Shown one piece after another: positions 912 through 62,915 of a DNA stretch of 64,000 nucleotides. The stretch is taken from assembly GCA_963920705.1 (NCBI GenBank), contig OY987234.1, positions 4,971,851 to 5,035,850 on the forward strand. The letters run 5' to 3'. How positions within the stretch are numbered: the first letter of the stretch is position 1; each line of letters opens with the position of its first letter. This DNA is from Odiellus spinosus. Lineage: Eukaryota > Arthropoda > Arachnida > Opiliones > Phalangiidae. A model generated the notes under the pieces. That model was given only the letters and a program-made list of their open reading frames with translations, searched no databases and was not told the DNA's origin. The translations under genes and the position numbers were made by a program.

Positions 912-1825
912 ATTAGAGGGAAAATACAACTTAACAAGTAATTCCTTATCGTTTAAATAGGCCTAATCCACCACTTAAACAAGAGATATCCAGACAGTCT
1001 GGATAATCGAGTACTCGGTAACCGCGTAAAAAGTGTAAATGATTCTTACCCGCGCAAAAAAAAAAAAAAAAAAATCAAAAAATAAATAAATGGAGAAAGG
1101 AGTCTTTGCGCCAGATGGCGCCGGGGATTCCAGCCAGAGAGAGAGAAAACTCAACTGTCGACGAAAACATGGGTGTAACACGAAAAATTTGCCCTTTTTT
1201 AGGAGCGACGCGAAGGGGAGTAAACGCGCTGAAAGCTACGTTCCTTCCCCCAACTACATCTGTGTTTCGAGCTATCTTTCAATAACGTGTAGTGATGACG
1301 TCATCACTCCACGTAAAAATTACAGACAAATATTAAACTAGAAATTTAAAACTTATCCGGAAAATAGGCTTAGCTGGATTCATGGAAATCAGCTGAATTT
1401 CTTCGCATTAAAAGGTCAGCGACCAATGAGCAAAGGCCCATGTCGTTAAGGCGAGATCTCCGTGAGACTTTCAAAAACATTTGATTGGTCGATGACCCGT
1501 CAATGTGAAAATTTTCAGCTGATCTCCATGAATCCAGCTAAGCCTATTTTGATGGTAAGTTTTAAATGGTATCGTCCCAATTGATCGACTTTTAAGTGAT
1601 CGAAACCAGTTTTTTGGATTTAATGATCGAAATATTTAGGTTAGGTTAGGTTAGGTTAGTTTTTTAACTCAATCGATCATATGAAATTCGATCATTTCGA
1701 CCCAAATCGTTTTAAATTGGCTTCTAGATTATTATTTGTTTGTTTTTTTTTTGTTACTGGTGATTAGATCTATTTAAACCATAAGGAATCGATAAAAAAA
1801 ATCACTTTTTGTTTTTTCCCTTCAA
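912..1825. mobile_element. M2 family MITE, interrupted by a KW element
   Basis: The left end TTAGAGGGAAAATACAAC and right end TTTTTCCCTTCAA are diverged forms of the M2 terminus TTAAAGGGAGAATGCAACC. The interior has the M2 arms (CCTTATCGTTTAAATAGGCC and its complement) and the central inverted segment with GGCTTAGCTGGATTCATGG. A KW element is inserted at 1568. Boundaries are approximate. Confidence 0.8.
1568..1709. mobile_element. KW-a: TTAGG-cored keyword-arm element
   Basis: A 142-bp insertion flanked by the perfect 8-bp duplication TTTTAAAT (1560-1567 and 1710-1717). Other M2 copies show the unoccupied site. The core is four TTAGG units plus TTAG (1636-1659). The arms carry repeated GATCG words in inverted orientation (CCAATTGATCGAC on the left, CGATCATTTCGACCC on the right). 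No coding capacity. The 8-bp duplication suggests hAT-type mobilisation, which is inference. Confidence 0.85.
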
Positions 1826-1990
1826 AGAATTCGGAAAATATTAATCTGAATTGTGCAAAAAACAACCTGATTCAGATTTAATTAAATGTAATATTTGTGA
1901 GTGTGAATGTAAACGTAGATAAGGTCAAAGGTGCAGAGTTGTCTGCTGATTATTAAGATTCTTTGTCAAGGTAAAATCAGTGCAGATTTC

Positions 1991-2315
1991 GTACATGACC
2001 TGGAAAAGTCAGGGAATTTGATAATTGACCCAAAATGTCAGGGAAATTGGAAATTGGCCCAGAAAGTCAGGTAATTTGGAAATTGGCCCAAAAGATCAGG
2101 GGAAAGTTCGGGAATTTGGATACAAGCAGAAAAGTTCGGAGAAATTAAATATTTTGGTACCTGTCAGGGAACTGTTTATGATTGGTTGACCGTTTAATTG
2201 TAACGTAATTATAAACTGAAAATATTTGCCTAGAGATTTTTTTTTCTTATATTCTGAGTAATCTATCGACCCTTATTGATAAACTATGATAAATAAAAAG
2301 TGGGAATTTTTATAC
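1991..2315. mobile_element. M19 family fragment (GTCAGGGAA phrase array)
   Basis: Several imperfect copies of a phrase of the form GTCAGGGAATTTGGAAATTG followed by GCCCAAAA. They are followed by a tail (TATAAACTGAAAATATTTGCC) shared with 43400-43830. Termini were not identified. Confidence 0.75.
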
Positions 2316-2813
2316 GAACCCACAATTGGTTTTTAATATTTTGCACAATCCAGCCATACTTCCTGAATTATGTGTTACTACGCAAACGACGTTTTATTTT
2401 TAGAAGCAGAGTCAATAAAAAAAGATTACTTAATTTTCCACTTCACCCTCTCTTTAATATCGACCCACTTTCGCCAAATCTTAAATTCTAAACCCACTTA
2501 CAGATTTCGCGCCATAATTTCCCGTTTTTTTTTTAGGCTTATATTTCGCATAGTTGTGAGAACATATCATAGATGGCGATATTGTTTCAGCGGGAGAATA
2601 AATCGATGTTTTTACCGGCTTTTTCTTCAAGGTCTCTTCCTAATCCTGTGGTAGACACGTGTTATAAGTCTGCAGTCCTAGAAGGGTTTAAATTTTTTTG
2701 TTTGAAAACTTAACATAGGCGTGAAGCTTGTCGCTTTCAAACATTGCGTTTTAATCATTGATCGGTTTCAAAGTATCACGTGACACTTTGCGGGAGGAGA
2801 AAAAATGTAGACT

Positions 2814-3440
2814 TTAAAGGGAGAATGCAACTTAACAAGTGATTTTGTTTTATCGATAGCTTATCGTTTATTTGTCTTAGGTTCATTTGCTCGACTTCCA
2901 ATTGATCGACAAGGAGTCCGTTTGATCGACTACCGTTTGATCGACTACCGTTTGATCGACTACCGTTTGATCGACTACCGTTTGATCGACTACCGTTTGA
3001 TCGACAAGCCGTTCCAATTGATCGACAGCCCAGTTTTTTAGCGAGTAACGAGTATAGGTCAAAGTTTTTTTACAAGAAACTATTAAAGGTTAAATTATGG
3101 TATATAAATAAGAACTAATTCAAATAATAATTATTCCGTGAAAATGGGGTCAGAGTACTCGTTTGTCGGTTAGGTTAGGTTGGTTAATCTATTTATAATC
3201 GTTATTACGAAGTTGACCAATTGGGAAACGATCAAATGCACCCTTTGTTGTCGGTAATTTGGGATTAGGCATCAATCATTTGATCCCTTTGTCGATCGTT
3301 TGGGAGTCGATCAAGTGGACCTCTTGTCGATCAATTGTGAGTCGATCATTTGGGTGTCGATCAAGTGGACCTCTTGTCGATCATTTGGGAGTCGATCAAG
3401 TGGACCCAAATCCGTTTATTTATGCCTAATCATAAGGACT
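2814..3440. mobile_element. M2 left arm split by KW-b
   Basis: TTAAAGGGAGAATGCAACTT starts at 2814, and the M2 arm runs to CTTATCGTTTATTT at 2873. It resumes after the KW-b insertion with ATGCCTAATC, matching GGCCTAATCC in other copies. The rest of the element is missing. Confidence 0.75.
2874..3413. mobile_element. KW-b: TTAGG-cored keyword-arm element
   Basis: A 540-bp insertion with perfect 8-bp duplications GTTTATTT (2866-2873 and 3414-3421). The left arm holds GATCGAC words, including about five copies of a 15-bp unit TTTGATCGACTACCG at 2930-3005. The right arm holds the inverse word GTCGATC at least seven times over 3290-3405. The core has TTAGGTTAGGTTGG at about 3170-3184. No ORF. Confidence 0.85.
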
Positions 3441-3464
3441 TTTGATTTTGGCCTCAAACTTTCT

Positions 3465-3545
3465 TTAAAGGGAGAATGAAACCCAATAACAAGTGTTTTT
3501 TTATATCCATTCCTTATCGTTCAAATAGTCGTAATTCAACACACG
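3465..3545. mobile_element. M2 left-end fragment
   Basis: TTAAAGGGAGAATGAAACCC begins a second M2 left arm in the same orientation as the one at 2814. It stops after about 80 bp, near the CGTAATTCAACAC segment. Confidence 0.7.
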
Positions 3546-3569
3546 AGAATCAAGTGTAGGCTCCAAAAT

Positions 3570-3840
3570 AGCCACGCGACCATAGCGCGTATGACGTAGT
3601 ATTGCGAGGAATTTTTATTTTAAAAATTTAGAAAATGGTGATTATAAAATATTATTTTTTACTTTCGCGGGAATTTTGTTGTATGACATATGTATATATA
3701 TTTTGAATCTTTTTTAACGATCTTTCCGAAAATACTACTCAATTTCCATTTGTAGTTCATGAAAAATCCTTTACAGCCTCACTTTCTTAGTCGAAATGCT
3801 GCATTATTACATAGAGTTAATTTCAGGCTCCCTTTAAAAA
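3570..3840. mobile_element. M18 repeat family copy
   Basis: Shares blocks such as AACGATCTTTCCGAAAAT and TAGTTCATGAAAAATCC with 6690-7510, 16880-17175 and 20130-20250. It contains GCCACGCGACCATAGCGCG near the left edge. Complete termini were not determined. Confidence 0.7.
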
Positions 3841-4391
3841 AGAGGCTTATTATTGGTTAATAATACGCGCGATCTACGTCCTTCGAGGCTTCGAACTTTA
3901 ATCGATTCATAATTAAAATAAACCCGGAACATTTCTAAGAAAAAATGGCAAATACTTTTTGGTGTGACGAGAAATTACGATTAATTATTATCTTCGATAA
4001 ATATACAGTTGCGTCTACCGTAATAAACTTTAGTCTAGACTTTCAATTTGGTCCATAATTTGATGCCTAAATCAACAATGTCTGGTATTACTTAACCCAT
4101 ATTCTCCCCCCCCCCCCTTTCTACCGCCACAAAACACGCGATTATGTTTGGAAAAGCACGACTAAATCTATATTATTGACGGAAATAAGGTTTCTGCTAT
4201 TAAAATACAAGAAAAGGTACATTTTAGGTTAATAGTTATTCCTCTACATTACTCTAGTATTTACTTTTAAGCGCAGTTTGCAAAAAAAAAAAAATAGGAA
4301 AAATCTTAATTCAAAAACGTGAGAATAGCGTAAGTTACGTAATATATATAAGTGAGGCACTTTACATTACATAATATTGTTTCAATATTAT

Positions 4392-4706
4392 CAAGAATCC
4401 ATTCAGGTTCAATAAGAATATGGGAGGGCCGCGATTCAATAACCATCCTCCCAAACTTTGTAGCAAAAGTTCGTCCGCTTCGAATCGATTTTTCAAGTAA
4501 ATCGCTCCTGACATTATATTATTAACCCGCGCCACTAACGACCTTGACATAATATTTTGGGTAATAAAAATGGAGCCAACCGAAAAAAGATCTAAGCGTA
4601 CAAATGTTGGAAAATTGCGGACGAACTTTTGTTACAAAGTTTGGGAGGATGGTACCAGAGGCTAAAGCTATGCTCCCATATTCTTATGGAACCTGAATGG
4701 ATTCAA
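4392..4706 (-). mobile_element. M1 family MITE, copy 1
   Basis: Begins CAAGAATCCATTCAGG and ends CCTGAATGGATTC. It has long subterminal inverted repeats (TTTGGGAGGATGG and complement). Orientation is opposite to copies 3-5. The right terminus is altered (GGATTCAAT instead of GGATTCTTG), and no target duplication is recognisable. Confidence 0.85.
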
Positions 4707-5029
4707 TTAATTCACATATATGCGTAGCGGAACGGAACGTGGAGCAATAACTACTGGAGATTTAGCTTCACAATCTTGAATCATGCAGACATCTAGATAT
4801 ACCTTAGTTCCGCCGTTTACGGAAGTATAGTTCGGCTTGTCGTTTTTAGACTAATTTTTATATTATGGCGGGGTTTAAAATTAGTCTGACAAAAGATATC
4901 AGGTTCTGTAGCCAATTTGATTTTACAATAACGGCAGCTCGAATTTTGACTTGAAACCAGTTGTGTAAATAGATATCATATAATTGTCTAGATACAGTTT
5001 CCTTGGTTAGGCCGTTGAGTAAAACGCGG

Positions 5030-5540
5030 AAGTGACAAATAGCAGACGACGGCTATGGGGACCCCCATGGTGGGGCAAAAATAGGAACAGCACCTTTCCT
5101 TTCGGAAAATACTTGAATTTTCCCGCTTTTGACCAAAAAATGCCTTTGTTATTAAATATAATTCGAGTGGAGAGAATGAAATCGGCTTCAAACGTGTCCA
5201 AAGGTATTTTACGAGATCCGTCAATTTTAAAAAGTTAAATTTAATTTTTATATCGTTTAAAAAATAACTTATTTAGCCCGCTAAGCCTTGGCCAACTGTA
5301 TAAAGGTAAATTTGACTCTTTCTTATGCCTTTGTAGAGTAGACCAAGGCTTAGCGAGCTAAATATATTTTTGTTTTTTTAAACGATATGAAAGTTACATT
5401 TATGTTTTGAAAATTGACGGATCTTGTAAAAACAGCTTTTTGAACACGTTTTGAGCCGACTTCATTCTCTCCTCTGGAATAATATTTAATAAAAAATACA
5501 TTTTTTAGCCGAAGCGGGGAAATTCATCTATTTTCTGAAC
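5030..5540. repeat. Large inverted repeat
   Basis: A left arm (about 5100-5270) and right arm (about 5365-5525) are imperfect reverse complements around a short spacer. Paired landmarks are GGAGAGAATGAAATCGGCTT with GCCGACTTCATTCTCTCC, and GCTAAGCCTTGGCC with CCAAGGCTTAGCG. It is probably a MITE; the three ORFs here are by-products of the arms. Confidence 0.8.
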
Positions 5541-6689
5541 TCCGGTATAGATGGCGCTCTTCCGATTATTCCCCCCTCCCGCGTTTTCTCATGATTCAGT
5601 ACGGTACCTAGCCAGTTATATCTATGGTATGGGTGGGTGGTGGATATAATGAGCAACTGCATTTTTTATTCATTGTCATATTTCTAGGCATATGTATTAT
5701 AATAAGTTTATAACATATCTTCTATAAGTATGTCAATTAGCAAATTTTCTTAATGACACCTTGTCTGAAATCGGACGACAGTGTGACGTCAGAGTAACCA
5801 AGAATAGAGATCTCTGGCTGAGACCCTCATTAATATAATATTCAAAATTATTCTATTGGCTGGCATGAAAAACGTAAAGACCACACGTGACCCCGAAGTA
5901 GCCAGTAAAAATCTACACAAAGAATGATTATTTTTGACTGGGTTTTGGCGATCCATATTCTATTATCGATCTTGCGACATTTAAGGTCTCATTAAGAAAA
6001 ACTCGTTTGAATTAAACGATAGAAGTGACACACTTATAGAAGACAAGTTATAAACTTACGGTATTACGTTACTTCTGAGAATAATTCTTGAATATGTAAT
6101 TCGTTCACGCGACGCGATCGAAATCCGTTTCAGTATTTTTAGGGACTACTTTTCCTCTAGTTAATACTAATATGTAAGCATCCGCTATAACTTTGTATAC
6201 GGTCTAAATTTAAGTTGATTTTTTTCAAGTACGTTAGTAGCTTAGAATAAAAAGGTTCTGAATAATTTTTTTCCAACTCGACAATATTTGCGCTTTTTCA
6301 GCTGACGTTGCTCGATTGTTTTTGGAACATTCTTTCGCCGCCTTTTTAGATTAGTCGCTTTTATAGGCGTGCTAAGCCAAATTTCGAAGATCGTTCTTTC
6401 AATTATACTCTTGTTCGTTTTAAAGGGGGAGATTTCTAGTTTTAATATCGCTATGATCTTTAATATTACGTATCAGTCCGCTTCTGTTTCCCCTATTATG
6501 TCAACTGCCCTCGGCATTGAAGTTTAGTTTGACCAAAGTTTTAAAACTAGTACCACAATGGAATCATTTCACTCGGGCTGACTGAGCGCTTTTTTAGAAT
6601 CTAAGTGAGGATAAAGTATTTTTATTTTTCAAAATTAGTAAACGCATTAACGATGTTGCTGGTATTTTAAAGAAATATTTAAACATTTG
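5541..6689. other. Non-coding stretch, nothing recognised
   Basis: No long ORF, clear exon, tandem array or element ends could be supported. It may hold diverged transposon remains. Confidence 0.45.
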
Positions 6690-7510
6690 CTGTTAAGTTG
6701 GGGAAGTGTCAGACACTCTTAAACAAAATTACGAACCGTAAGAATTTAACAGTTTTTTGCAGTTTTTCCCAAAATTAGGACAAAACATTCCCCATTTTGT
6801 TATTAAAGAAATCACTCTGACAATTTTGTGGATATTTAAATTTAGTAGAACTTTCGGAAAGATCGTTTAAAAACGATTCAAAATATATATTCATATGTCG
6901 TAGAAAAATATTGCCGCGGTATTAAAAATATATATTTTATAATCGCCATTTTTCCCAACAATACTACATCATCGCACTATGGTCGCGTGGCTATTGTAGA
7001 GCCGTTAAGGTTCCAATTGCGCAGTTCCCACGAGCGCATTTCCTTTTGCGCAGTGTTCATTTGCAGGTTATGTTAGGTTTCGTTAGGTTAGTTAATCACT
7101 CGAACTAGCCTGTCGCTCTTGTGGACAGCTCGAATGGCAAATTACACAAATGGAAAACTGCGCAAATGGGAACCGCGCAAATGGAAATGAGCAAATGGGA
7201 AACCGCGCAAATGGCTACTGCGCAAATGAAAATGCGCAAATGAAAATGCGCAATTGAAAATGCGCAATTGGGAAACTGCGCAAACCGTAGAGCCTACAGT
7301 TGATTATCGGGCGTTCTGCCACAAGTGATAAGGTCGATTTCGTAAAAGTACTTAATCCAAAAAGTATCAAAATTATCGTCATTTATCGGGGAAAACAATT
7401 ACCTATAATTTTCATATATATTTTTTATAATTGTTTTTAACGATCTTATCGAAAATGCTACTCAGATTTTTATTTGTCGTTCATGTAAAATCCATGACAG
7501 CCTCACTTTA
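6690..7510. mobile_element. M18 copy interrupted by KW-c
   Basis: The left part (to 7003) resembles the reverse of 3570-3840, with CACTATGGTCGCGTGGCTAT. The right part (from 7287) resumes with GTAGAGCCTACAG and later AACGATCTTATCGAAAATGC. The reverse complement of 3550-3600 approximates the unoccupied junction (GTGGCTATTTTGGAGCCTAC). Confidence 0.7.
7004..7286. mobile_element. KW-c: TTAGG-cored keyword-arm element
   Basis: A 283-bp insertion with perfect 8-bp duplications GTAGAGCC (6996-7003 and 7287-7294). The right arm repeats GCGCAAATGG-like words about ten times. The left arm has the inverse word (CCAATTGCGCAG, TTTTGCGCAG). The core, near 7065-7110, includes GTTAGGTTAGTTAATC. The keyword is GCGCA, unlike the GATCG of KW-a and KW-b. 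Confidence 0.85.
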
Positions 7511-7680: not shown

Positions 7681-8160
7681 AAAGGGAAGCTTGAAGCTAA
7701 AATTGAAACAGATTTTGAATTTATTTTCTTAATCACCCGATTCCAAAAAAAGTATTCGACAATTTTCAAAGCAATTATTAGACACGTTTTTGGTTTTTAA
7801 ATTCGTTTCTAAAGATTGGTAAAATTTGAATAAAAGTACGTGTAAATTCGGGCAAATCATATTATTTCAGCCTTCAACAGCGCTTGTAATGTCCTAATAT
7901 TAAAATATGCCCAAGGTCTTGGGCATCAAACTCCGGCCTTTTCTCTTAATTTTCCGACATTACAAAGGCTGCTGAAGGCTGAAATAATATGATTTTACAT
8001 TTACTTTTATTTAGTAGGTTTAACCAAACTTGAGAAATGAATTTAAACACCAAGAAAGGTGTCTAATAATTGTTTTGAAAATTGTCGAATACGTTTGTTA
8101 CATCCGGTTATTAGTAAAATAAATTCAAAGCCTGTTCAATTTTTAGCTCCATGATTCCCT
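7681..8160. mobile_element. M5 family MITE, copy 1
   Basis: Starts AAAGGGAAGCTTGAAGCTAA and ends GATTCCC before TTAA (8161-8164). The centre (about 7868-7990) is a hairpin whose arms read CAGCCTTCAACAGCGCTTG and the complement, around CCCAAGGTCTTGGGC. Confidence 0.85.
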
Positions 8161-8179
8161 TTAATACTTTAAGACCATT

Positions 8180-8700
8180 TAATAAAATAAATTCGATCGA
8201 ATGCCTTAAAAAGTTCATAAATTTGATCAAATGCCTTAAACACTTCATAAATTCGATCAAATGCTTTAAAAAATTCAAAAATCAAATGCCTTAAACTCAA
8301 AATTCGATCAAATGCCTTAAAAAACTCAAATTCGATCAAATGCTTTAAGAAAACTCAAATTCGATCAAATGCCTTAAAAAACTCAAATTCGATCAAATGC
8401 TTTAAGAAAACTCAAATTCGATCAAATGCCTTAAACTCAAAATTCGATCAAATGCCTTAAAAAGTTCATAAATTCGATCAAATGCTTTAATAAAACTCAA
8501 ATTTGATCAAATTCCTTAAAAAGTTCATAAATTCGATCAAATGCATTAACAAACTCATAAACTCGATCAAATGCCTTAACAAACCCATAAAATTCGATCA
8601 TTTGAACCCATTTGCTTATGAAATTCGATGAAATGACCATTGGATAAAACGTCACACTGTTCGATCGATTGCCTTTCGATGAAACGGCCTTCATCAATTG
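8180..8700. repeat. KW-d: degenerate TTCGATCAAATGCC array
   Basis: About 15 imperfect copies of a 28-36 bp unit containing TTCGATCAAATGCCTTAAA, decaying at the right into ATTCGATCATTTGAACCC. The keyword resembles that of KW-a and KW-b, but there is no TTAGG core and no convincing target duplication. Confidence 0.85.
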
Positions 8701-8719
8701 TTCCAAATGATTCAATAAT

Positions 8720-9671
8720 TTTGAGATGATCCTACCATATCATATTTATAAAAAATAATAATATTTTTTGAGCTTAATTCATATACGGTATTAGCCCAGC
8801 TGCTAGCTAAATGGTACAGTAAGGTGAGAACCACTGTATCATTTCCCTTGGAATGGATGTTCCTGACTAGAATATCTAGAGCTGCAAATTAAAATAACCG
8901 TAATTTTGGCCGATTGGTTAAATTGCACGCTAATTTACCTTTAATTACAAAATGATTTATGTTTGAATTTGTTTCCTCTTTCAAACGCTTCTAAATTCTG
9001 AATTCACCTAAACCCCCCTTACACTCGCGAAAAAGGCCTGGATAAGTTATTGATTAGAATATAATATCTGAAAGAAAATAGGCGATATACACTGGTCAAT
9101 AAGTTAATCACTTATTACATAAAAGTAATTAGCGTCCTGTAGCGTAACGACTGAAGCAAACCACGAACGTGACGTCATAGCCCATCACTTAAAATTAGCG
9201 AAAATAAGTCACCAGCACCCCTGTCTGGTTCGATTAAGTTCGATTTATCTTAGACTTCCCTTTTATAATTTCAAATTATGAATAAAGATAAAATAATCAG
9301 AATTATCATTTCAAACCCCGACCTCTATTTCCTCCAAAAATATTCTTAGTTAGAGAAATTTTTATAAATCGGGTAATCAATACCGGCGATTTTGCGCGGT
9401 AACTATGCCCTTGAATAGTTATATTCCAATGTCACGAATGTGGATTTTTCCGTGGCTTTTTCCTTTAAACGTGTTATACCCTAAATTCCGTTTGTCAGTA
9501 ACGGCTTTGTAGAGGTAAGGGACAAAGTTCCGCTTGGAGTTTAATTTCTGACTCCTTCCCGTATGTCTTAACATTAATTTCTTACGAGACTGTGATTTAT
9601 TTAACATTTTACCTCGATTTTTCTCCTTCCTTCGAATATCACTATATTGACTCTTCAAATTGACGCAGTAT
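8720..9671. other. Non-coding stretch, no recognised element
   Basis: A 79-codon Lys/Arg-rich reverse ORF (9419-9658) has no splice sites or recognisable domain, so I do not call it a gene. No repeat unit was identified. Confidence 0.45.
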
Positions 9672-13092: not shown

Positions 13093-14051
13093 GCTCTGGA
13101 AACAAGTTATGTCAATTTATTGTTGAAATATGCCTAACATTCGATTAAAACTCGAAACAAAGTCCAAATACTAATTCGAAGTTATTAAAGTATCGAAATT
13201 AGGAGTCGGTTACTGATCAGCCAATCCAAGAGTTGCTCTTTGAAACAGTATTGCGTCAAGCGTAAGATATGTTTGTTAGAAATACCGCACGCGCTAGAGA
13301 TAGATTGATTTTAGCGCCATTTTTATCCCATATTTCAATAGACCTTTTTATAAAATCATCTTGAAAAACGATAAAATAACCGTTAAAAAACCGTCGTTTC
13401 TATCGAAGATGTTGCCTTCTTTCAAGGTTGGTCAAAGTATAGGATTATTTACCTATACTTTTGCCAATCTCGAAACTAACAAAAAGTGCCGTTAAATGGA
13501 ATCCATTTCTACGGAGGATGTTGGATTATATAAAGTCAGACTTTGTATAATTGTCTATTAACTTTTATCGAGAATTTTTACATTCTAAAATTTCTTACTG
13601 GTTTAGGCTTAGCTAGTCTAGTGCGCGTCTTTGATAAGTACCTCTAAATCTTTATTTCAAGTTTTGAATTGTTTAGAAGAGTCTAGAGTATCCCTTTAAT
13701 CTTTTACAATAACTCTTTAATCCGAGACTTACCGTTTCTTCGATGATTCAACGATGACGTGTCCTTGTTTTTTCTTTTATTTTTACGTGCCAACTCATTT
13801 TAATTGAAGGGGGGGAATAGTGTCTTGACTACTCGCTATAGATTTTTGCATAAATTATGTAAATTTATATATGTCAAATTAATATCCGTGACTATCTGAA
13901 ATTATCTTAACCCTTTTTATCAAATAAGCAAACAAAATTGTCACGTGAGCTATATTTAAACACCGAATGTACTTAGATTCATGTACATCTATTATTTGCG
14001 TCATTAATTTTAATTATCCTTCGTAATTGCGTTTTTTATAAGAAATTTTCT
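13093..14051. other. Intron sequence, nothing recognised
   Basis: AT-rich, without a supported exon, array or element terminus. It contains a short G tract near 13808. Confidence 0.45.
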
Positions 14052-14055
14052 TTAA

Positions 14056-14494
14056 AGGGAGAATGCAACCTAACAACAAGTGATATTTTACCGATTCCTT
14101 ATCGCTTAAATATACTTAATCCACCAGTAAATAAATTTACAAACTAATATTAAACCCTAGAAATAATTTTATAACTTACCCGGAAGTTAGGCTTAGTTGA
14201 ATTCATGGATATCCTAAATTACTTCGCATTGAAGGGTCATCGACCAATCAGAAAAGTCCCGTCGATACCGCATGATATTCCTAAGACTTCCAATAACATT
14301 CGATTGGTCGCTGACCCTTCAATGCGAAGAAATTAAGGATATTCGTGTCAATGTAGCTAAGCCTATTTTGATGGTAAGTTTTAAAATTATTTCTAGTTTA
14401 TTATTTGTATGTTAATTTTTTTACAAGTGGATTAGGCCTATTTAAACGATAAGGAATCGATAAAAAACACTTGTAATATGGTTACATTCTCCCT
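14056..14494. mobile_element. M2 family MITE, complete copy
   Basis: TTAA at 14052-14055 and 14495-14498. Termini are AGGGAGAATGCAACC and GGTTACATTCTCCCT. The arms and the central inverted segment are both present, so this serves as a reference copy. Confidence 0.88.
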
Positions 14495-14833
14495 TTAAGC
14501 CTTAATACCGGCAAAGTCATATTTTTATAGTTAATTTAAATAACTAAGCTCGTTAAAACCTAGGCTTCCATGAAGTAAAAACGTCACAGTAAACCTTAGT
14601 CTATAATTAATGTACGTTTTTTTTTCTTAAAATATTAAGTTATAAATTTATGTTAAATATAATAATTTACGATGATTACCGGTGCTTTAAATTCCCCACT
14701 CGGATACAACTGAGTAAATATATACGTTAACTCTTTAGAATATTATTAAATAAATTTACGAGACTGTTACTTCATGGTTAAGAAAAACAATTTATTAAAT
14801 AGATGCTTTCAGGACAGTTTTCTTTATATTTAA

Positions 14834-17175: not shown

Positions 17176-17308
17176 TGTTTTTAAGCAAATCACCAGTAAC
17201 TACAAATTTCTAATCTTACGTGGTCACTTTATTAATTAAGCAAAAATTTTCGAAAATTGAAGTTTGAAACATTACGAACTTCCAACAATTACAATTATAT
17301 ACTAATGA

Positions 17309-17624
17309 CAAGAATTCATTCAGGTTCCATAAGAATATGGGAGGGCCGCGATTCAATAACCATCCTCCCAAACTTTGTAGCAAAAGTTCGTCCGCTTCGA
17401 ATCGATTTTTCAAGTAAATCGCTCCTGACATTATATTATTAACCCGCGCCACTAACGACCTTGACATAATATTTTGGGTAATAAAAATGGAGCCGACCGA
17501 AAAAAGATTTAAGCGTACAAATGTTGCGAAAATTGCAGACGAACTTTTGTTACAAGGTTTGGGAGGATGGTATAGAGGCTAAAGCTATGCTCCCATATTC
17601 TTATGGAACCTGAATGGATTCTTG
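17309..17624 (-). mobile_element. M1 family MITE, copy 2
   Basis: Flanked by the perfect 7-bp duplication CTAATGA (17302-17308 and 17625-17631). Termini are CAAGAATTCATTCAGG and CCTGAATGGATTCTTG. Same orientation as copy 1. The ORFs overlapping it are by-products of the inverted arms. Confidence 0.93.
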
Positions 17625-17711: not shown

Positions 17712-18127
17712 AAACGCCGAGATTTTTTATCGACTCCTTATTGTTTAAATAGGCCTAATGCAACAGTAAAAATATTTAAGAACAAATATTAAACTAGAAA
17801 TAAATTTAAAACTTACCCGAAAAATAGGCTTAGCGGGATTCATGGAGATCCTGGTTTCCTCGCGTATAAGGTCTAGCGACCAATCGAACGCGATTGTAAG
17901 TCTCGTGCAGAACTTCCGTGAACAACGGGCCTTTGCTCATTGGTCGCTAGACCTTACACAGAGGCAATTCAGCTGATCTCCATGAATCCCGCTAAGCCTA
18001 TTTTCCGAGTAACTTATAAATTTATTTCTAGTATATTTGTTTTGTGAACTTTTTATCGGTGGATTAGGCCTATTTAAACGATAAGGACTCGATAAAAAAT
18101 CACTTGTTATTAGGTTTCATTCTCCCT
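17712..18127. mobile_element. M2 family MITE, left end missing
   Basis: Starts inside the left arm at TTTTTTATCGACTCCTTATT. The right end GGTTTCATTCTCCCT abuts TTAA (18128-18131). Confidence 0.82.
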
Positions 18128-18307
18128 TTAAAGGTGTTTAATTTTTAGTATACAACTTATTAATAATTATCCACGAGATACGAGCATATTTTAGCCAAAA
18201 CCAAAGATGCCGGTTAACTGGATTTTCCTTTTCATGTTATATTTAAAATTAATTCATCCACAATAGTACTGGCGCAAAATTCACTGATTGTAAATATCGA
18301 TGCCATC

Positions 18308-21860: not shown

Positions 21861-22810
21861 AATGATATATTGAGTGCAACCTTCAGACTATAGAACAACT
21901 CTTTATTAAACCAAAAATTTCAATTAAGCTTAATTATACGTAAATAATTAGCGATAATACGTACTTAGAATAAAACGACTTATTGAACCTTGATTATCGG
22001 GTATAGAGTAGAGGTACATGTAGTTTATTAATCGTATTTAATCGATTTTTCAAGGTAAGATAATTAAAGTCAACCTCTCTTAATCTAATGCATATGGTTA
22101 TCTATAGAGGAAGTTAGGAGAGTTTACAAAGTGGGAAAAGTTGCGGCGGATTGATACGCAATATGAAACCTCGTAGAAAGAAAGAAGGCCTTACCAACTC
22201 ATCTTTTTTCGACACGATTATAATTACTATCATAATTCAACTTATTTATATAACGAGGAGAATTTGCCCTTTATTTGAAATTCCTATTTACCTTGTAGGC
22301 GATGCGTAACTAACATGAACGGAAAAATAACACAGGGTTGCCACAGGTCAGGGAAAACAGGCAAAAATCAGGGAATTTGAAAATGAACCAAAAAATTCAG
22401 GAAATTTTAAGATATTTTAAAAAGTCAGGAAATTTTAAGATATTTTAAAAAGTCAGGGAATTTAAAGATCTTTCAAGAAGCCAGGAAATTACAATCATTA
22501 TCTGCAGAAAAGATTTGAAGCTGATCGTGTCAGTTGTATCAAGAATCCATTCAGGTTCCATAAGAATATGGGAGCATAGCTTTAGCCTCTGGTACCATCC
22601 TCCCAAACTTTGTAACAAAAGTTCGTCCGCAATTTTCGCAACATTTGTACGCTTAGATCTTTTTTCGGTCGGCTCCATTTTTATTACCCAAAATATTATG
22701 TCAAGGTCGTTAGTGGCGCGGGTTAATAATAGATGTCAGGAGCGATTTACTTGAAAAATAGATTCGAAGCGGACGAACTTTTGCTACAAAGTTTGGGAGG
22801 ATGGTTATTG

Positions 22811-25195: not shown

Positions 25196-25385
25196 ACTAA
25201 TTTATCTCAGAAATATTTAAATTTAAGTGTTTATTATTAAATTGTAGTTTTTTGATATTCCCCTATTGAACCTAATTTTTTAACTGCATTTGATCAGGAA
25301 TTTTGGATATCAATAAAATTTTAATAGGGAGTTTTATTAGTATGATATCATTCGAGAAAAAAATTGGGGAAAGCCTTACTATAAC

Positions 25386-25702
25386 CAAGAATCCATTCAG
25401 GTTCCATAAGAATATGGGAGAATAGCTTTAGCCTCTGGTACCATCCTCCCAAACTTTGTTACAAAAGTTCGTCTGCAATTTTCTCAACATTTGTACGCTT
25501 AGATCTTTTTTCGGTTGGCTCCATTTTTATTACCCAAAATATTATGTCAAGGTCGTTAGTGGCGCGGGTTAATAATATAATGTCAGGAGCGATTTACTTG
25601 AAAAATCGATTCGAAGCGGACGAACTTTTGCTACAAAGTTTGGGAGGATGGTTATTGAATCGCGGCCCTCCCATATTCTTATGGAACCTGAATGGAGTCT
25701 TG
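25386..25702 (+). mobile_element. M1 family MITE, copy 4
   Basis: Perfect 7-bp duplication CTATAAC (25379-25385 and 25703-25709). Full-length, with both distinct outer segments (AGCATAGCTTTAGCCTCTGG on the left, TTGAATCGCGGCCCTCC on the right). Confidence 0.94.
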
Positions 25703-26614
25703 CTATAACTAATCATTCCCGAAATTAGTGAAAAGATCTTAATTATTCTAAAATTGTCCCCAAAATTTATCTTTTTCGAAAAATCGTCACGTTTAGGGAG
25801 GAAAGATACGGTACTTAAATACTTTTTGTTTTGTTTATAAAACGGGGTAATTATTTGGGCTAGAATTAGAATAGTCTCTTTGTATGTAAACATCGGTCGG
25901 CCGTGAAATGTTTCCAGTCGTTATCTCCCACTATTTAGGCCGTCGTTTCAGAGAGAGATAGAGAGAGAGTTAACTTTGTGTGTCATATTGAATAATAGTG
26001 GATGGTTAACATACATGTAAAATGTTTCCCTTCTTCACGTATTGTTTGACACCCTGTTCTTTAAAAAAGGAATGAAAGGAGACCACGATTCCGAGTTCTC
26101 GATGGTATTTGGTGCGTTCATTATAATCGCCTGTTGCCTATGTAGTAAAATGCATTGTACACGGGGCTCGGCGTTTCGATAAGGTGGTGCAAAAATTAAA
26201 AAAACATCATCATTAAGAGATAATCGTACCCAAGTTGCGATAAAGAAATTAACATTTTCAAATGAAATGAAAGTCGTCAATATAACTGTTATCACGAGTA
26301 AATCATCCTGTATGATCTACTCGCGCTGTTATCACGAAACAAATCAGATAAATTTATCTATAAGGAATATATTTGTATTTATATAGCAGCATCTAGCCAT
26401 TTAAAGTTCGCTTATAAAGAATTTTACTTCAAATTTATCGATTGCCCACGATTAACCGCTTATTCCGGTTTATCAGTAGTTAATTACCAAACTCGTTTGG
26501 AGCGAGTTTTCTATTAAATTCCAGATCTGTTTGAAATATTTCAACGGCGCGATTAACAGAACATACTATAAATGCTGTTTCTAACACGTATTTGCGTATT
26601 TTGAAGACATTCAC

Positions 26615-31819: not shown

Positions 31820-32162
31820 AGGGAGAATTAAATCCAACAAGTGATTTTTTTTTAATCTATTCCTTATCGTTTAAATGGTCCTTATCCACCAGTAAAAACA
31901 TTTACAAACAAATATTAAGCTAGAAATAAATTTAAAACTTATCCAGGAAATAGGCGTAGCTTTCTCCTGCAGTGCATTCCCCATATAAGGGCCATAGATC
32001 AATGTCATTGGTCGATGACCATTCAATGGGAAGAATGGGAAGGTTTAAATTTATTTCTAGATTAATATTTGTTCATATTTTTTTTTTCTCTAGTGGATTA
32101 GGCCTATTTAAACCATAAGGAATCGATAAAAAAATCACTTGTAATTAGGTTGCATTCTCCCT
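31820..32162. mobile_element. M2 family MITE, short copy
   Basis: TTAA at 31816-31819 and 32163-32166. Both arms present; the central segment is reduced. Confidence 0.85.
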
Positions 32163-32619
32163 TTAAGGAATCGAAATTTATGCCTGTATTCGCTATGTTT
32201 TTGGTTATTTTTCTATCGCTAATCGCTGAAATTTTCTCTTAAATCGCTCTCATGAAAACGAGGATTAAGAGAGGAGGGAGACACGTGCCCTGACTTTCAC
32301 AATTTTGGATTTTCCCAAAACCAGAAAATTTCCCTTTTTTGGGGGGTCCTGTAACGATCATTTTAAAAAATTAGAGTACTCCACAATCGTACTTAAAGGC
32401 AGGGATGTTAATAAGGGAGAAAATTACCCCGGGGTCCCATGCTCTATATTAATTGGAGCCTGCAAAATCAATGTTTATGGGGGTAAACAGGAGGGAATTT
32501 GGTATCCTAGCCTTCACATAAATTTCCATTTTTTTTCGCTTGTGGTGTAAAATCGTTACATCGATTACGCAATTACGTATCTGATTACAGATACTTAATC
32601 TGCACAGTCAAAGCTATAT

Positions 32620-36850: not shown

Positions 36851-37089
36851 CCCGCCAAAATTACTTTGAACTTTGAACCCAACTTGTGTAGAATAATATT
36901 AGAATTGGAGAAAAGTGGGATACAAGTGATTTTAAAATCAAAATTTCTCTACAACGTAGCATTCAACCGAAAAAGGGTTTTTCAAGAATCTAATCTTGAT
37001 TCGCTGATATATAGAAATGAAAATTTCAGAGATTAATCAAAAAGTCGTTTTATACAATATAAATGACCATAGCCTTCGTGTACTGTAAC

Positions 37090-37406
37090 CAAGAATCCAT
37101 TCAGGTTCCATAAGAATATGGGAGCATAGCTTTAGCCTCTGGTACCATCCTCCCAAACTTTGTAACAAAAGTTCTTCTGCAATTTTCGCAACATTTGTAC
37201 GCTTAGATCTTTTTTCGGTCGGCTCCATTTTTATTACCCAAAATATTATGTCAAGGTCGTTAGTGGCGCGGGTTAATAAAATAATGTCAGGAGCGATTAA
37301 CTTGAAAAATCGATTCGAAGCAGACGAACTTTTGCTACAAAGTTTGGGAGGATGGTTATTGAATCGCGGCCCTCCCATATTCTTATGGAACCTGAATGGA
37401 TTCTTG
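37090..37406 (+). mobile_element. M1 family MITE, copy 5
   Basis: Perfect 7-bp duplication CTGTAAC (37083-37089 and 37407-37413). Full-length, same orientation as copies 3 and 4. The 113-codon reverse ORF here is an arm by-product. Confidence 0.94.
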
Positions 37407-37739
37407 CTGTAACCTATACATCATGTCTTTGACTGCGATGACTTAAAATATAGCTTCCGCCTTTAAATGTACGAAATACATGAATAGGTTCCTATCGTAA
37501 TGGCCTAGAATATAGCCGTCGCCTTTAACTGTACTAAATACACGCGAGGATCCTGCGTTCTATAAATGCAGTAAGGGATCTATTTTCTATAACCCAGCCT
37601 TTATCTGTACTAAATAGAGGTTTCCACCGAAGCACGCGTGTCTTCTATACATCTCTTAAACAAGTAAACACGAGAATACGATATCAAATTCTTACCTCTT
37701 TCCACCACCTGTTTCGAATCCCGACCCAACGAAAAATGT

Positions 37740-38375
37740 CTATGGAGAATTAACATACACCACTTTTCTATGAGAATTTAACATACACCACTATTCTATG
37801 AGAATTTAACATACACTATTCTATGAGAATTTAACATACACTATTCTATGAGAATTTAACATACACCACTATTCTATGAGAATTTAACATACACCACTAT
37901 TCTATGAGAATTTAACATACACCACTATTCTATGAGAATTTAACATACACCACTATTCTATGAGAATTTAACATACACCACTATTCTATGAGAATTTAAC
38001 ATACACCACTATTCTATGAGAATTTAACATACACCACTATTCTATGAGAATTTAACATACACCACTATTCTATGAGAATTTAACATACACCACTATTCTA
38101 TGAGAATTTAACATACACCTCTATTCTATGAGAATTTAACATACACCACTATTCTATGAGAATTTAACATACACCACTATTCTATGAAAATTTAACATAC
38201 ACCACTATTCTATGAAAATTTAACATACACCACTATTCTATGAAAATTTAACATACACCACTATTCTATGAAAATTTAACATACACCACTATTCTATGAA
38301 AATTTAACATACACGTCTTGTCTAAGGGATTTTAACATACACCACTTTTCTACGGGGATTTAACATGCACTACCA
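37740..38375. repeat. 28-bp tandem satellite
   Basis: About 23 copies of GAGAATTTAACATACACC plus ACTATTCTAT. Two short units lacking CCAC occur near 37811-37858. A block of five consecutive units with GAAAATTT instead of GAGAATTT lies at about 38185-38305. Both edges decay gradually. Confidence 0.97.
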
Positions 38376-39639: not shown

Positions 39640-40335
39640 GATATGACGTCAGGTCCCTAGATCTTCCCATAGTAATATTTTGATATATTTTAATATCCCC
39701 TGTATGGCATCTTGTCCCTGAGCAAGGAAGCGCCACGGTTAGAACACTTTTACAGGCGTTGACATATTTTAAAATCTACTGTCAAATTGACATTTAATAT
39801 TAAAATAATTTTGACTTAGCCTATATATTGTAAAAAATACATTAATTAAAAGATTTAACATATCTAATTATCAAAAATAAACAAAAATAAAATCCAATAT
39901 CCGTAACCTCCCCGAAAAGCAAAAGTTCTGGAAAGGGCTGGAAGGTTCTGGAAATGTTCCCTAATTTTTCACGGGTTTTTATTCATACATTTTCAAAATT
40001 TATTTATATTTAGCGACCACGAAAAACAAGTGTGTACTATAGAAATAAAATGTTGACGTTACATCGTAAAAAAAAAATCAAAAACGAAAGGGTTAAGGCT
40101 GGAATATTTTCCATAAATATTGATTTGAAATGTATCTGCCACGTAAATGTCTTTCAAACCTAGGGAGTTTGTCAGAATCGGCCGGAGTTTTCATTAAGCA
40201 TTGAGCTATTGTGTCTTGTCCGAGGGACAGATCATTAATGCCCAGGATACGTCACATTTAAATTAAGATTTTTTTTAATCGCGACTACAGTAATTAGTGG
40301 ATTAAACTAAATATTTAATCCGTATTACTATTTGA
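39640..40335. other. Unassigned stretch
   Basis: AT-rich, with GTTCTGGAAAGGGCTGGAAG local repetition near 39925. Nothing else recognised. Confidence 0.4.
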
Positions 40336-41735: not shown

Positions 41736-41908
41736 CACTCGTTCTATTGGGTTCGCGTCGCATTGCCGGATAGATGACGTCACTAAAATGGGAGGAGATT
41801 TCGACCTTTTCTCTTCGTACGTTATAATACGTCTTCGTTACTCTATTAAAGGCCAGTTCACATATAGATTATGTTATCAATTTATCGCGTGTATACCTAC
41901 TCCTTTAA

Positions 41909-42103
41909 AGGGAGAATGCAACCTAACAGCAAGGGATTTTTTATCTATTCCTTATCGTTTAAATAGGCCTATTTTGATGGTAAGTTTTAAATTTATTTCT
42001 AGTTTAATATTAGATTTAAAAAAAAAAAACATTTCTAGTGAATTAGGCCTACTTAAACGATAAGGAATCTATAAAAAAATACTTGTTAGGTTGCATTCGC
42101 CCT
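41909..42103. mobile_element. M2 family MITE, internally deleted
   Basis: TTAA (41905-41908) then AGGGAGAATGCAACC. Both arms are kept but most of the central segment is missing. The right end GCATTCGCCC abuts a mutated TTGA. Confidence 0.85.
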
Positions 42104-42339
42104 TTGAGATAATGGTGGTTTGATATCTCGGAGTAGCGAAATACATCACCCCAATTACGGTTCTGGAAAACCTAGTATAAATTTTCTCGTATGCAAGCTT
42201 GAATTTTCCGAGGGGTCAGACACTCTTGAACTCGGAATTATTTACGGAGCATTTAGTTCTCACAATATGATCAAAGTAAGATTATTAGGTGAATTGCGCA
42301 ACCCAATTGTTTGCGTGATTTCCTCGTAACTAAATGTAT

Positions 42340-51012: not shown

Positions 51013-51064
51013 CATCCAAGATAGAAACGACATAAGATTTAAAGCTGAGGCGGATTGATACAAA

Positions 51065-52007
51065 ATGTTAAACCTCTTAAGAAAAATTATAGTCGTGAAA
51101 ACTCCCCTTGGACAGAAGTACAGTAGGTTTCCCGTGTTTAAAAAAACATCAGTTTTGAATAAAAAATGGTTATCTGATGCTGGAAAAAAATAGGCTTCAG
51201 ATTTCTCCACTATAAAACCAAGAAACATTTCCGATTATTTTCATAATCAAAAGAAGCCGTGTAGAGTGAGACCAGACAAAAGAGAGCTATAGTGACTTAA
51301 GTGAGAAAATCAACCAGCGCAGAATGTCATCACCATTTGAAGTCAACAGAGCAGCGACACGGCTTTCATTTATCACCAGAAAGAGACGGCCTGGCTACGA
51401 AGAATTGAAACACGCAAGCAGTGAGTGTTTTCGGACTCGACATATGAGATTCTTACAGTCAGTAAAAGCTCAACAGTTCTTCATACGGCCTCGTTATTCT
51501 AAACATAAAAGGAGCTATTCAAGTATAAATATTAAAGGTATGGAAATTAGTCTATTTCAGTATTCAAGATATTTTTTTTATCATAGGAGTGGAAGCTAAC
51601 GTCTTGTCAGCCGGTTTGGAAAATAACCTCTCGACCAGCTCAATCCTTTGATTCTTCCAATGACTGGGATCACTTGCATGATGAAAATATCAGTAATGGT
51701 CCTCTATTAGCACGTCAAAACAAGAATTTTAGACGAAAACTGTACCGGAAGTAATTGCCGATCATCTACCGAAAATGGGTTGTAAATGGAACATTCAGTC
51801 TACAATATTTCTTGGTTTGTCTAAGAGGAACTTGCTACAAAATCTTCGTCGTTTTAATTCCTTGTCTTCATTGCCATCCCAGACTAAATCCTTCATCTTT
51901 ATCAAATCAGTGGATTATCTCAAAGATAATCACACAGTACAGCCTATGCTCTAATGATAATTTATATTATAAGAACATGTATTTTACATATTTATTAAGA
52001 AAATAAA
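51065..52007 (+). pseudogene. Decayed coding locus with poly(A) signal, unknown
   Basis: A run of protein-like forward frames in different phases: 51065-51190 (42 codons, VKTPLGQKYSRFPVF), 51324-51537 (71 codons from ATG, TRKRRPGYEELKHASSE), 51587-51751 (55 codons, DSSNDWDHLHDENIS) and 51733-51951 (73 codons, VPEVIADHLPKMGCKW). A splice-like pair, AAAG/GTATGG (51538) and TTATCATAG (51586), would make a 49-bp intron, but the phases on each side disagree. The last two frames overlap with a shift. AATAAA is at 52002-52007. I infer a broken gene or transposon-carried gene. The family is not recognised. Confidence 0.45.
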
Positions 52008-52013
52008 TTTCAT

Positions 52014-52140
52014 TTGGTGTGTCAATTATGAATTCTACGCCATGCCGCATATAATTATTGGTAACGCAGGACATTTCATTTGGTGTGTATATTAGAGTCT
52101 ACGACCTGCCGCATATAATTATGGGTAACGCATGACATTC
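52014..52140. repeat. Tandem pair of about 66 bp
   Basis: TTTCATTTGGTGTGT to GTAACGCAGGACA is repeated once as TTTCATTTGGTGTGT to GTAACGCATGACA, just after the poly(A) signal of the decayed locus. Confidence 0.85.
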
Positions 52141-52455
52141 TTTTGCATTCTCTGTATCCTTGAGGTTAAGGGAAAATACTTATACTCCGTAAAATAGAGA
52201 ATAATGATTGAAATGCACGCTGTTTCCTCTACTCATCCAATACTCTACATTTCTTTTCATCTTTTATTTTAGGTAGGGTTAGGTTAGATTACCTTAACGT
52301 CGGGGTCGGGGAGGTTATATTTTGGTTTCCCAACTTGTTCGATTAAAAATCGACGAAAACGAAACGTACAAAATCGTCGACCAAAGATTTTTCCTAAGCT
52401 TATATTTGTTAAAAAAAATCATAACTGAAAACTGATTCGTTATGGAAGAGTGAAG
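52141..52455. other. Unassigned stretch with TTAGGTTAG
   Basis: AGGGTTAGGTTAGATTACC at about 52276-52294, followed by TTCGATTAAAAATCGACG words, is reminiscent of the KW core and arms. No duplication or complete element was found. Confidence 0.4.
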
Positions 52456-57018: not shown

Positions 57019-57734
57019 CATTTCCAACGTCGATTAAGCCAAATTTCCAACGTCGATTAAGCCTAATTTCCAACGTCGATTAAGCCTAATTTCCAACGTC
57101 GATTAAGCCTAATTTCCAACGTCGATTAAGCCTAATTTCCAACGTCGATTAAGCCTAATTTCCAACGTCGATTAAGCCTAATTTCCAACGTCGATTAAGC
57201 CTAATTTCCAACGTCGATTAAGCCTAATTTCCAACGTCGATTAAGCCTAATTTCCAACGTCGATTAAGCCTAATTTCCAACGTCGATTAAGCCTAATTTC
57301 CAACGTCGATTAAGCCTAATTTCCAACGTCGATTAAGCCTAATTTCCAACGTCGATTAAGCCTAATTTCCAACGTCGATTAAGCCTAATTTTCAACGTCG
57401 ATTAAGCCTAATTTCCAACGTCGATTAAGCCTAATTTCCAACGTCGATTAAGCCTGATTTCCAACGTCGATTAAGCCTGATTTCCAACGTCGATTAAGCC
57501 TGATTTCCAACGTCGATTAAGCCTGATTTCCAACGTCGATTAAGCCTGATTTCCAACGTCGACTAACCCTGATTTCCAACGTCGACTAACCCTGATTTCC
57601 AACGTCGATTAAGCCTGATTTCCAACGTCGACTAACCCTGATTTCCAACGTCGACTAACCCTGATTTCCAACGTCGACTAACCCTGATTTCCAACGTCGA
57701 CTGACCCCGATTTCAAACGTCGATTTAGCCTAAT
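57019..57734. repeat. 23-bp satellite, CCAACGTCGATTAAGCC
   Basis: About 31 copies of TTTCCAACGTCGATTAAGCC plus TAA. Variants appear in order from left to right: TAA units, then TGA units, then GACTAACCC units. Confidence 0.97.
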
Positions 57735-58162
57735 TTCAATCGTCGAGTAAGCCTAATTTTCAAACGTCGAGTAAGCCTAATTTTCAAACGTCGAGTAAGC
57801 CTAATTTTCAAACGTCGAGTAAGCCTAATTTTCAATCGTCCAGTAAGCCTAATTTTCAATCGTCGAGTAAGCCTAATTTTCAATCGTCGAGTAAGCCTAA
57901 TTTTCAATCGTCGAGTAAGCCTAATTTTCAATCGTCGAGTAAGCCTAATTTTCAATCGTCGAGTAAGCCTAATTTTCAATCGTCGAGTAAGCCTAATTTT
58001 CAATCGTCGAGTAAGCCTAATTTTCAATCGTCGAGTAAGCCTAATTTTCAATCGTCGAGTAAGCCTAATTTTCAATCGTCGAGTAAGCCTAATTTTCAAT
58101 CGTCGAGTAAGCCTAATTTTCAATCGTCGAGTAAGCCTAATTTTCAATCGTCGAGTAACCCT
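57735..58162. repeat. 24-bp satellite continuing the 23-bp array
   Basis: About 18 copies of TTTTCAATCGTCGAGTAAGC plus CTAA, differing from the 23-mer by one inserted T and a few substitutions. The first few units read TTTTCAAACG. The 24-bp length makes a spurious 156-codon reverse ORF repeating RLKIRLTR. Confidence 0.97.
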
Positions 58163-62285: not shown

Positions 62286-62915
62286 ATAGAAGTCCAGTGA
62301 ATTTGCGTTGGAAGTTGCGCAATATTTGCGTATTTGCATGTGTGAAAACGATGTTGTATACAACTTAAATTTAACAGCCCAAATTGATCCATAACCCTCC
62401 ATAATCTCTCAGAAATGGCAGGGCATATCATGGCGTACTTTCGCTTATAACGTGACTTCTGATAAAATAAAAACGTATGTACGAGGCTTACGTAACGTCT
62501 AAAGCCGAATTTAATTAAGCGAGCGCGGTATCACGTCTTGTTTACGGATAAAGGTATTAGATAAGGATCATTTCAAAAATATAATACCTGGCCCGCTCGC
62601 CGCGTTAAGTTTCTTTCAAATAACGACATTAAATAGCCTCGTCATGTTTTATGAAAGAAATATTACGAAATATATGAAACGGTTGCGCGTTACCCTCTGG
62701 TCATTTAAAAAACGTGATCCTAGAGAAGTTTCGCCAAGTTTCCTAATAAGCTTAGTAAATTTATCTAGTAAAGAAATTACGCTTATGGGTTTAAGAGCCA
62801 AATAACCCGATTTGCTGCTGGAGCTACCTTTAATATCTTTAAAGGTCATTGAAAGTGAAAGCAGAATCTTTTTTCATGTCTCGTAAATGAATTAAAGGCT
62901 TTTAGCATGTGCTAT
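62286..62915. other. Unassigned stretch before the end satellite
   Basis: No gene or repeat terminus found. The 66-codon reverse ORF at 62649 is unsupported. Confidence 0.4.

Follow-up and report, generated by a model that had tools for sequence, protein, structure and literature searches.

Word-bearing insertions in Odiellus spinosus as probable non-autonomous Mutator-superfamily transposons of the Phantom/Muta type

A 64,000-nucleotide stretch of the Odiellus spinosus genome (assembly GCA_963920705.1, contig OY987234.1, positions 4,971,851 to 5,035,850; hereafter the window, within which positions are given) contains three short insertions, here named E1, E2, and E3, each with a TTAGG-like core and many copies of a short word in arms that point in opposite directions. 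What kind of element is built in this way? An initial annotation of the window had placed the insertions at 1568-1709, 2874-3413, and 7004-7286, had given each of them a perfect but different 8-bp target-site duplication and a different word, and had assigned the design to no named family. All three insertions are present, but two of them end one base earlier, the same two have 9-bp duplications, and these two have one word in common. On comparison with known transposons and with coding relatives in the same assembly, E1, E2, and E3 are probably non-autonomous DNA transposons of the Mutator superfamily, of the Phantom/Muta type, whose words would be bound by transposases with FLYWCH and MULE domains, one word per family.

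The boundaries were set by comparison with other copies. Copies of the E2 family (30 best loci) fix its ends as GGCTTAGGTTCATTTG and CCCAAATC; the 3' ends of E1 and E2 therefore shift by one base, to 1708 and 3412, and both duplications become 9 bp long. E1 (1568..1708, 141 bases; all elements and their parts are given on the + strand) consists of five GATCG-type words, a TTAGG core (1636..1659), and the 3' end CCCAAATC, like that of E2, which sets the boundary of its 9-bp duplication GTTTTAAAT (left copy 1559..1567; right copy, read from the letters themselves, 1709..1717). E2 (2874..3412) is a non-coding foldback element whose extent follows from family members and from host-repeat copies without it; it has a left arm of eight GATCGAC words in 15-bp units (2888..3027), a TTAGG core and then TTAATC (3169..3190), and a right arm of seven GTCGATC words with a spacing of 15 and 20 bp (3208..3404), and it lies between two copies of the 9-bp duplication CGTTTATTT (2865..2873 and 3413..3421) that are identical at 9 of 9 positions. 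E3 (7004..7286), also a non-coding foldback element, carries the word TGCGC, with a left arm in the TTGCGC orientation (7011..7064), a core at 7068..7120, and a right arm in the GCGCAA orientation with a spacing of 14-16 bp (7147..7283). Copies of its family fix the ends as GGTAAGGTTCC and GCAAACC; the window copy has lost part of this usual 3' motif and has retained its 8-bp duplication, GTAGAGCC (6996..7003 and 7287..7294, both read from the letters). The 3' ends of E1 and E2 resemble each other over 36 nt at 81% (E-value 9e-5), and the word of the two is the same, of GATCG type, with GTCGATC in E2 read outward; the TGCGC of E3 differs. The core motif TTAGGTTAG has seven matches in the window, six of them inside E1, E2, or E3, compared with a chance mean of 0.62, and its genome background is higher, at 17 per 120 kb of flanks.

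E1, E2, and E3 are real insertions: when each element was removed together with one duplication, the flanks joined, and the result aligned to the repeats of the window, the joined flanks matched unoccupied repeat copies in all three cases, which is the comparison that the initial annotation had proposed. The host repeat of E1 has two unoccupied copies (14241-14472, + strand, and 17723-17948, - strand) and that of E3 has one (3538-3729, - strand), which extends 21 bases beyond the junction, with scores of 163-216 for these sites and 33-41 for reversed controls. The general search for unoccupied sites gave best matches for E2 on one flank only; a targeted alignment found 16 host-repeat places, 9 of which span the junction by 7-11 bases, an overlap that is this short because the host repeat ends there, and none of the reversed controls reached the threshold. 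A second repeat family with many copies, ending in TTATCGTTTAAATAGGCCTAATC or near it, has members into which E1 and E2 are inserted, and its copies lie at 913-968, 1761-1827, 14050-14121, 14430-14498, 18062-18133, 32096-32166, 41903-41971, and 42042-42105.

Both word types are high-copy families. The exact 22-base 5' end of E2 occurs in 303 copies in the 443-Mb assembly (reversed control, 0), and we fetched 60 loci for the two families, including E2 and E3 of the window (L091 and L121): the 30 best E2 loci (L091-L120; 466 candidates, 40 scored) and L121-L150 for E3 (902 candidates, 40 scored). With L102 dropped, as its 5' end was not located, and with one mismatch allowed, 24 of 29 E2 copies are flanked by an 8- or 9-bp duplication, which is perfect in 10, compared with 3 of 812 swapped pairs, in which the two flanks were taken from different copies; L092, L100, L101, L109, and L113 have none, and 9-bp duplications are frequent in this family. 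At 8 bp, 21 of 26 E3 copies have a duplication (14 perfect; swapped pairs, 2 of 650; L121, L133, L135, and L150 dropped, both ends not located), and L148, which was scored as a miss at this length, has a perfect 9-bp duplication. L114 and L115, with identical flanks on two contigs, are probably one insertion.

Core and arms also occur together in these copies, as the initial annotation had claimed for its three loci. TTAGGTTAG is present in 29 of the 30 E2-family copies, and the words reverse at the core: every exact GATCGAC lies to its left and every GTCGATC to its right, with no exact word the wrong way round (for L102 this covers the sequence outside its left arm, and for L100, without TTAGGTTAG, the midpoint was used). 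The E3 copies contain five stray words in the wrong orientation, in 4 of 26 copies. The outcome that would have spoken against the annotation, namely, most copies without duplications or cores and arms found apart, is thus the reverse of what these counts give.

How far the elements stand out in the window depended on the measure. We scanned for 8-base direct repeats enclosing one arm with several copies of a 6-letter word and another with several copies of its reverse complement, and used four third-order Markov sequences as controls: the scores were 15 for E2 and 10 for E3, compared with 6 for the top control, but also 9 for an array at 8158-8945 and 7 for a place at 40104. When the words were shortened to 5 letters, the top rows went to a satellite at 57.3-58.1 kb, which outscored E1-E3; when the direct repeat was ignored, E2 came first and E3 sixth, after satellite-like places. 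DNA folding compared with shuffles showed inverted arms of the foldback class in E2 (z of -8.4) and E3 (z of -4.5). E1 folded no better than its shuffles (z of -0.7) and by itself does not qualify as a foldback; with five words along its 141 bases it is a much weaker case, connected to E2 through the similar 3' end. Rfam gave nothing at gathering scores, and Pfam gave nothing over the cut-off in 10 reading frames of the window. One could argue from the repeat-rich region, from an E1 that is inconspicuous alone, and from satellites that outscore E3 in one scan that E1-E3 are not mobile at all, being tandem repeats that arose by chance or pieces of satellite whose flanking 8-mers match fortuitously; the unoccupied sites, the copy numbers in the hundreds, and the duplications around copies that differ in their flanks leave this account practically no credence.

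Word number varies widely between copies, from 5 to 17 in the E2 left arm (where the arm was covered), and in the E3 family from 4 to 82 in the right arm and from 2 to 94 in the left. L122 and L146 of the E3 family reach 82 and 94 words in a single arm, which shows that arms can expand into small satellites, or satellite-like arrays. This variation, with its extremes in L122 and L146, and the left arm of the window E2, which amounts to 5.9 perfect 15-bp repeats, are what would be expected if the words had no function and the arms were neutral minisatellites, grown by slippage and homogenised between arms by hairpin-templated repair. Against such a neutral origin, the two arms of E2 use one word but follow it with partly different letters: in the window E2, cross-arm identity is 0.14-0.25 at columns 9, 10, and 13, and over the 30 E2 copies it is 0.17 at column 10, yet 0.87-0.99 at columns 8, 12, and 13. 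The contrast with the word columns is suggestive only and is no clean test of constraint, because units were chosen by exact word, so that six of the seven word columns in the window E2, and all seven in the 30 copies, are identical by construction. The precedents of Muta and Galileo, described below, also favour a role for the words. Because the contrast is partly built in, we hold that Phantom/Muta elements with transposase-bound words are the probable explanation, short of near certainty, and that neutral arms are unlikely but deserve some weight.

Contrary to the initial annotation, this design has a name, since Phantom/Muta Mutator-like foldbacks match it (PMC5225508, PMC3169594, PMC6446971). 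Muta1 and Muta5 of Aedes aegypti, which are Mutator-like, have duplications of 8 or 9 bp with no apparent preference, an 8-10 bp terminal motif and, in the inverted arms, nine subterminal repeats of 12-15 bp, and >300 and >200 non-coding derivatives, respectively, with a variable repeat number in Muta1 (PMC5225508); a later survey placed Muta in the Phantom group (PMC6446971). In the same mosquito, 10 of 12 long-arm families have subterminal repeats of 9-15 bp (PMC5225508), so the presence of such repeats in many families of one genome was already known. E2 and E3 have the same duplications and arm plan as Muta1 and Muta5, but the word sequences differ, and the available portions of the Muta descriptions mention neither a TTAGG core nor a unit divided between a constant frame and a variable word. 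In root-knot nematodes, Tm1, a Mutator/Phantom foldback with MITE-like and transposase-coding members, has mostly 9-bp duplications (8-10 bp in 45 of 53), composite arms of 13-15 bp tandem repeats, and asymmetric terminal motifs outside the inverted part (PMC3169594); it differs from E2 and E3 in its termini, its host group, and the single repeat motif described for it. Galileo of Drosophila, in the P superfamily, has long inverted arms with tandem repeats that hold functional transposase-binding sites, the multiple sites being proposed to give specificity (PMC3688188), and Tetris, also of Drosophila and put in Mutator by its authors, has 8-10 bp duplications and has seeded satellites (PMC4079207, which also mentions sea urchin foldbacks). 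Both have longer arms than E2 and E3, the repeats of Tetris are ~220 bp long, and Galileo is of another superfamily. The TU elements of sea urchin are foldbacks with short tandem repeats in their arms and short duplications.

Two features that mark the Phantom/Muta type are found in the elements described here: duplications of 8-10 bp in the E2 and E3 copies counted above (24 of 29 and 21 of 26) and in the window (E1 9, E2 9, and E3 8 bp), and inverted arms in which short subterminal tandem repeats come after a terminal motif. We also searched the contig collections viral_contigs and genome_contigs for the units. Exact and gapped unit patterns gave 0, 18, 68, and 4 stretches in viral_contigs; in the 86 loci from the first three patterns, no 600-base stretch had at least two frame units per orientation, and none had two copies of TTAGGTTAG. 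One unit pattern in genome_contigs gave 0 stretches.

A MULE domain search of the assembly gave 72 matches over the cut-off, including duplicates on other contigs and pieces of one copy, of which we read 16 (L151-L166); FLYWCH adjoins MULE at six or more loci, six of these places being among 150 scored FLYWCH matches (291 candidates). L155-L166 are mutually related, with 25.5-100% identity in all 66 pairs, and in 11 of these 12 loci tandem units of 14-17 bp adjoin the MULE gene. Pfam finds FLYWCH and MULE in L156, L160, and L161, MULE in L158, L159, and L163 (where FLYWCH falls just below the cut-off), and FLYWCH in L166. The arrays are inverted on both sides, by BLAST, in L156 (with a short right arm), L159, L160, L161, and L162, and, judged by unit orientation, in L166. 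The arms of L160 consist of TTTGGTCTAGAGACAG, with a degenerate TTAGG stretch just within one of them, and its duplication, ATTGTGAACG, is 10 bp long; L156 has units GACATTCGGGCGCCGC, CCTAACC within the arm, and a 9-bp duplication, ATTTAAACT; and in L166 the units lie around TTGGGCGAAATGGGAA and the duplication, also of 9 bp, is CAAATAACT. Units of the TTCGGTCGAATGGGAT type stand on both sides of L161, and L159 and L162 have GGATTTTTTTACC in common. The sequence link of the E3 family to a coding locus is its core: L158 has four tandem copies of it (84-87% over 50-53 bp), which separate the MULE gene from an array around GATGCGAAAATTGGGT. One architecture with different words extends to transposase-coding elements, and the proposal of one kind of mobile element with a changing internal word holds in the 60 family loci and in coding loci with further words.

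Several observations at the coding loci weigh against assigning E1-E3 to this group. No MULE gene lay between arms with GTCGATC or TGCGC among the 16 of 72 matches read, and for the E1/E2 family the tie to the coding loci goes no further than architecture and unit frame. L151-L154 were rejected as partner loci (no word arms; stricter score), L163 has no short array, and in L157, L158, L164, and L165 the array is seen on one side only. The arrays of L155 and L164 are thin, at ~3 copies little above the chance arrays found elsewhere in L162. Duplications were sought in intervals of 50-140 bases per side at eight loci (L155, L158, L163, and L165 not among them), in which a perfect match by chance is estimated at 0.4% (L160) to ~6% (L166); L157, L159, L162, and L164 gave no clear duplication, and the sole candidate at L161 sits away from the arrays. 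TTAGG beside the gene is not decisive either, because at 17 per 120 kb of flanks one would be met by chance in such a stretch about half the time.

An E2-family copy, 84% identical to the window E2, is nested in the arm region of L159 (2300-2852). The seventh TTAGGTTAG of the window belongs to a segment (52218-52339) that matches part of MULE locus L165 at 95% identity, and 51032-52347, which is longer, matches MULE locus L164 at 79%. Of the 150 listed FLYWCH matches, ~140 are on one strand at G000:C6:5.64-6.11 Mb, a cluster reminiscent of mod(mdg4)-type loci, in which alternative last exons are numerous.

The partner gene of E2 and E3 that was not found among the MULE matches read leaves some room for convergence, in which tandem-word arms would have arisen in foldbacks from a different superfamily that also makes 8-9 bp duplications (P/Galileo with THAP, hAT, Merlin, or KDZ), and Galileo does have tandem binding sites in foldback-like arms (PMC3688188). 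The mix of 8 and 9 bp, however, is the pattern of Muta1 and Muta5 (PMC5225508). MULE genes with like arms occur in the same genome, and the E3 core matches L158. Elements of the hAT superfamily have 8-bp duplications and CAG-type ends, whereas the ends of E2 and E3 begin with G and show no CAG start. We rejected hAT membership on the ends GGCTTAGG/GATTTGGG and GGTAAGG/GGTTTGCG and on the frequent 9-bp duplications of the E2 family. Taken as a whole, an origin in another superfamily appears quite improbable.

For Phantom/Muta elements, the following mechanism can be proposed. Insertion with duplication, the family copies, the way the arms are built, and the existence of coding relatives that are built alike but carry other words are matters of observation; from the coding relatives we infer the steps beyond insertion with duplication, including which transposase moves the E2 and E3 families. 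In layout, the elements lack a gene, and a short terminal motif leads into arms of ~15-bp units, tandem within each arm and inverted between arms, around a short core. A FLYWCH+MULE cut-and-paste transposase, supplied by a coding relative at another place in the genome, would bind the word copies in both arms through its FLYWCH finger, the word being a putative transposase-binding site, and the many copies may give specificity, as proposed for Galileo. The transposase would then pair the ends, cut, and insert the element with a stagger of 8-9 bp. If each family answers to its own word, it would be moved by a transposase of matching DNA-binding specificity.

The units of several families can be written in one register, a word and then a similar half: GTCGATC|AAATGGGA for E2, CTGCGC|AAATGGGA for E3, TTCGGTC|GAATGGGA for L161 and L164, TTGGGCG|AAATGGGA for L166, TTGGGAG|AAATGGGA for L165, and GATGCGA|AAATTGGGT for L158. 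With one unit consensus per family, chosen by the analyst among repeat-finder rows, eight coding families fit the half derived from E2 and E3 with a sum of 49, compared with 40.7 for shuffled units (sd 2.03; 1 in 5000), and with L164 added the sum is 56 compared with 45.5 (0 of 4000 shuffles). Taken singly, L155, L156, L159, and L160 show no frame fit (P of 0.30-0.91) and that of L166 is weak (P of 0.08), so the frame concerns part of the coding group. The E2 and E3 units alone agree at 8, 9, or 10 of 15 letters for three versions of the E2 unit, which 40%, 12%, and 3% of shuffles reach. The partly common frame that had been noted around the word exceeds shuffles over the eight coding families together but is weak between E2 and E3 alone. 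The transposases of L156 and L160 are 50% identical; their units, compared by eye, agree in GACA.TT.GG and diverge elsewhere.

The foldback kind is already known, and the split into word and frame is the interesting part. As a tentative idea, to which we would give somewhat less than an even chance, the ~15-bp unit may be a modular address, in which one half (AAATGGGA-like) is kept across families and the keyword half is swapped as the FLYWCH+MULE transposases diverge; the swapped keywords, on the same tentative footing, would be GTCGATC, CTGCGC, TTCGGTC, TTGGGCG, TTGGGAG, and GATGCGA. If this is true, one genome would hold matched pairs of keyword and zinc finger that could serve to decipher the recognition code of FLYWCH fingers, and a change of keyword would be a route by which transposon families become mutually independent. 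Both the word-and-frame split and the TTAGG core are absent from the portions of foldback descriptions consulted and may exist in print.

What was a puzzling pattern becomes a defined transposon group with corrected boundaries, in which about eight or nine word types occur on one architecture in one genome, several of them with transposase genes. If the words are binding sites, they would form a natural series for studying the DNA choice of FLYWCH and the splitting of families by a change of recognition word. The elements also add further examples of foldback arms that grow into satellite-like arrays.

The window contains other repeats. At 8189..8690 (+ strand) lies a one-sided array with the unit word TTCGATCAAATG, like the words of E1 and E2, in ~29-bp units containing TTCGATCAAATGCC, the last of which resembles the 3' ends of E1 and E2; perfect flanking 8-mers were found solely inside the array, and it is possibly, at most, a relic of such an element. 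A multi-copy repeat with similar translations at several places on both strands (4365-4631, 17219-17578, 22448-22751, 25385-25705, and 37040-37420) is probably a palindromic miniature inverted-repeat transposable element. Long minisatellites that are 95-100% uniform lie at 1-333, 37739-38370, 57020-58162, and 62915-63997, with units of 21, 28, 23, and 33 bp, respectively.

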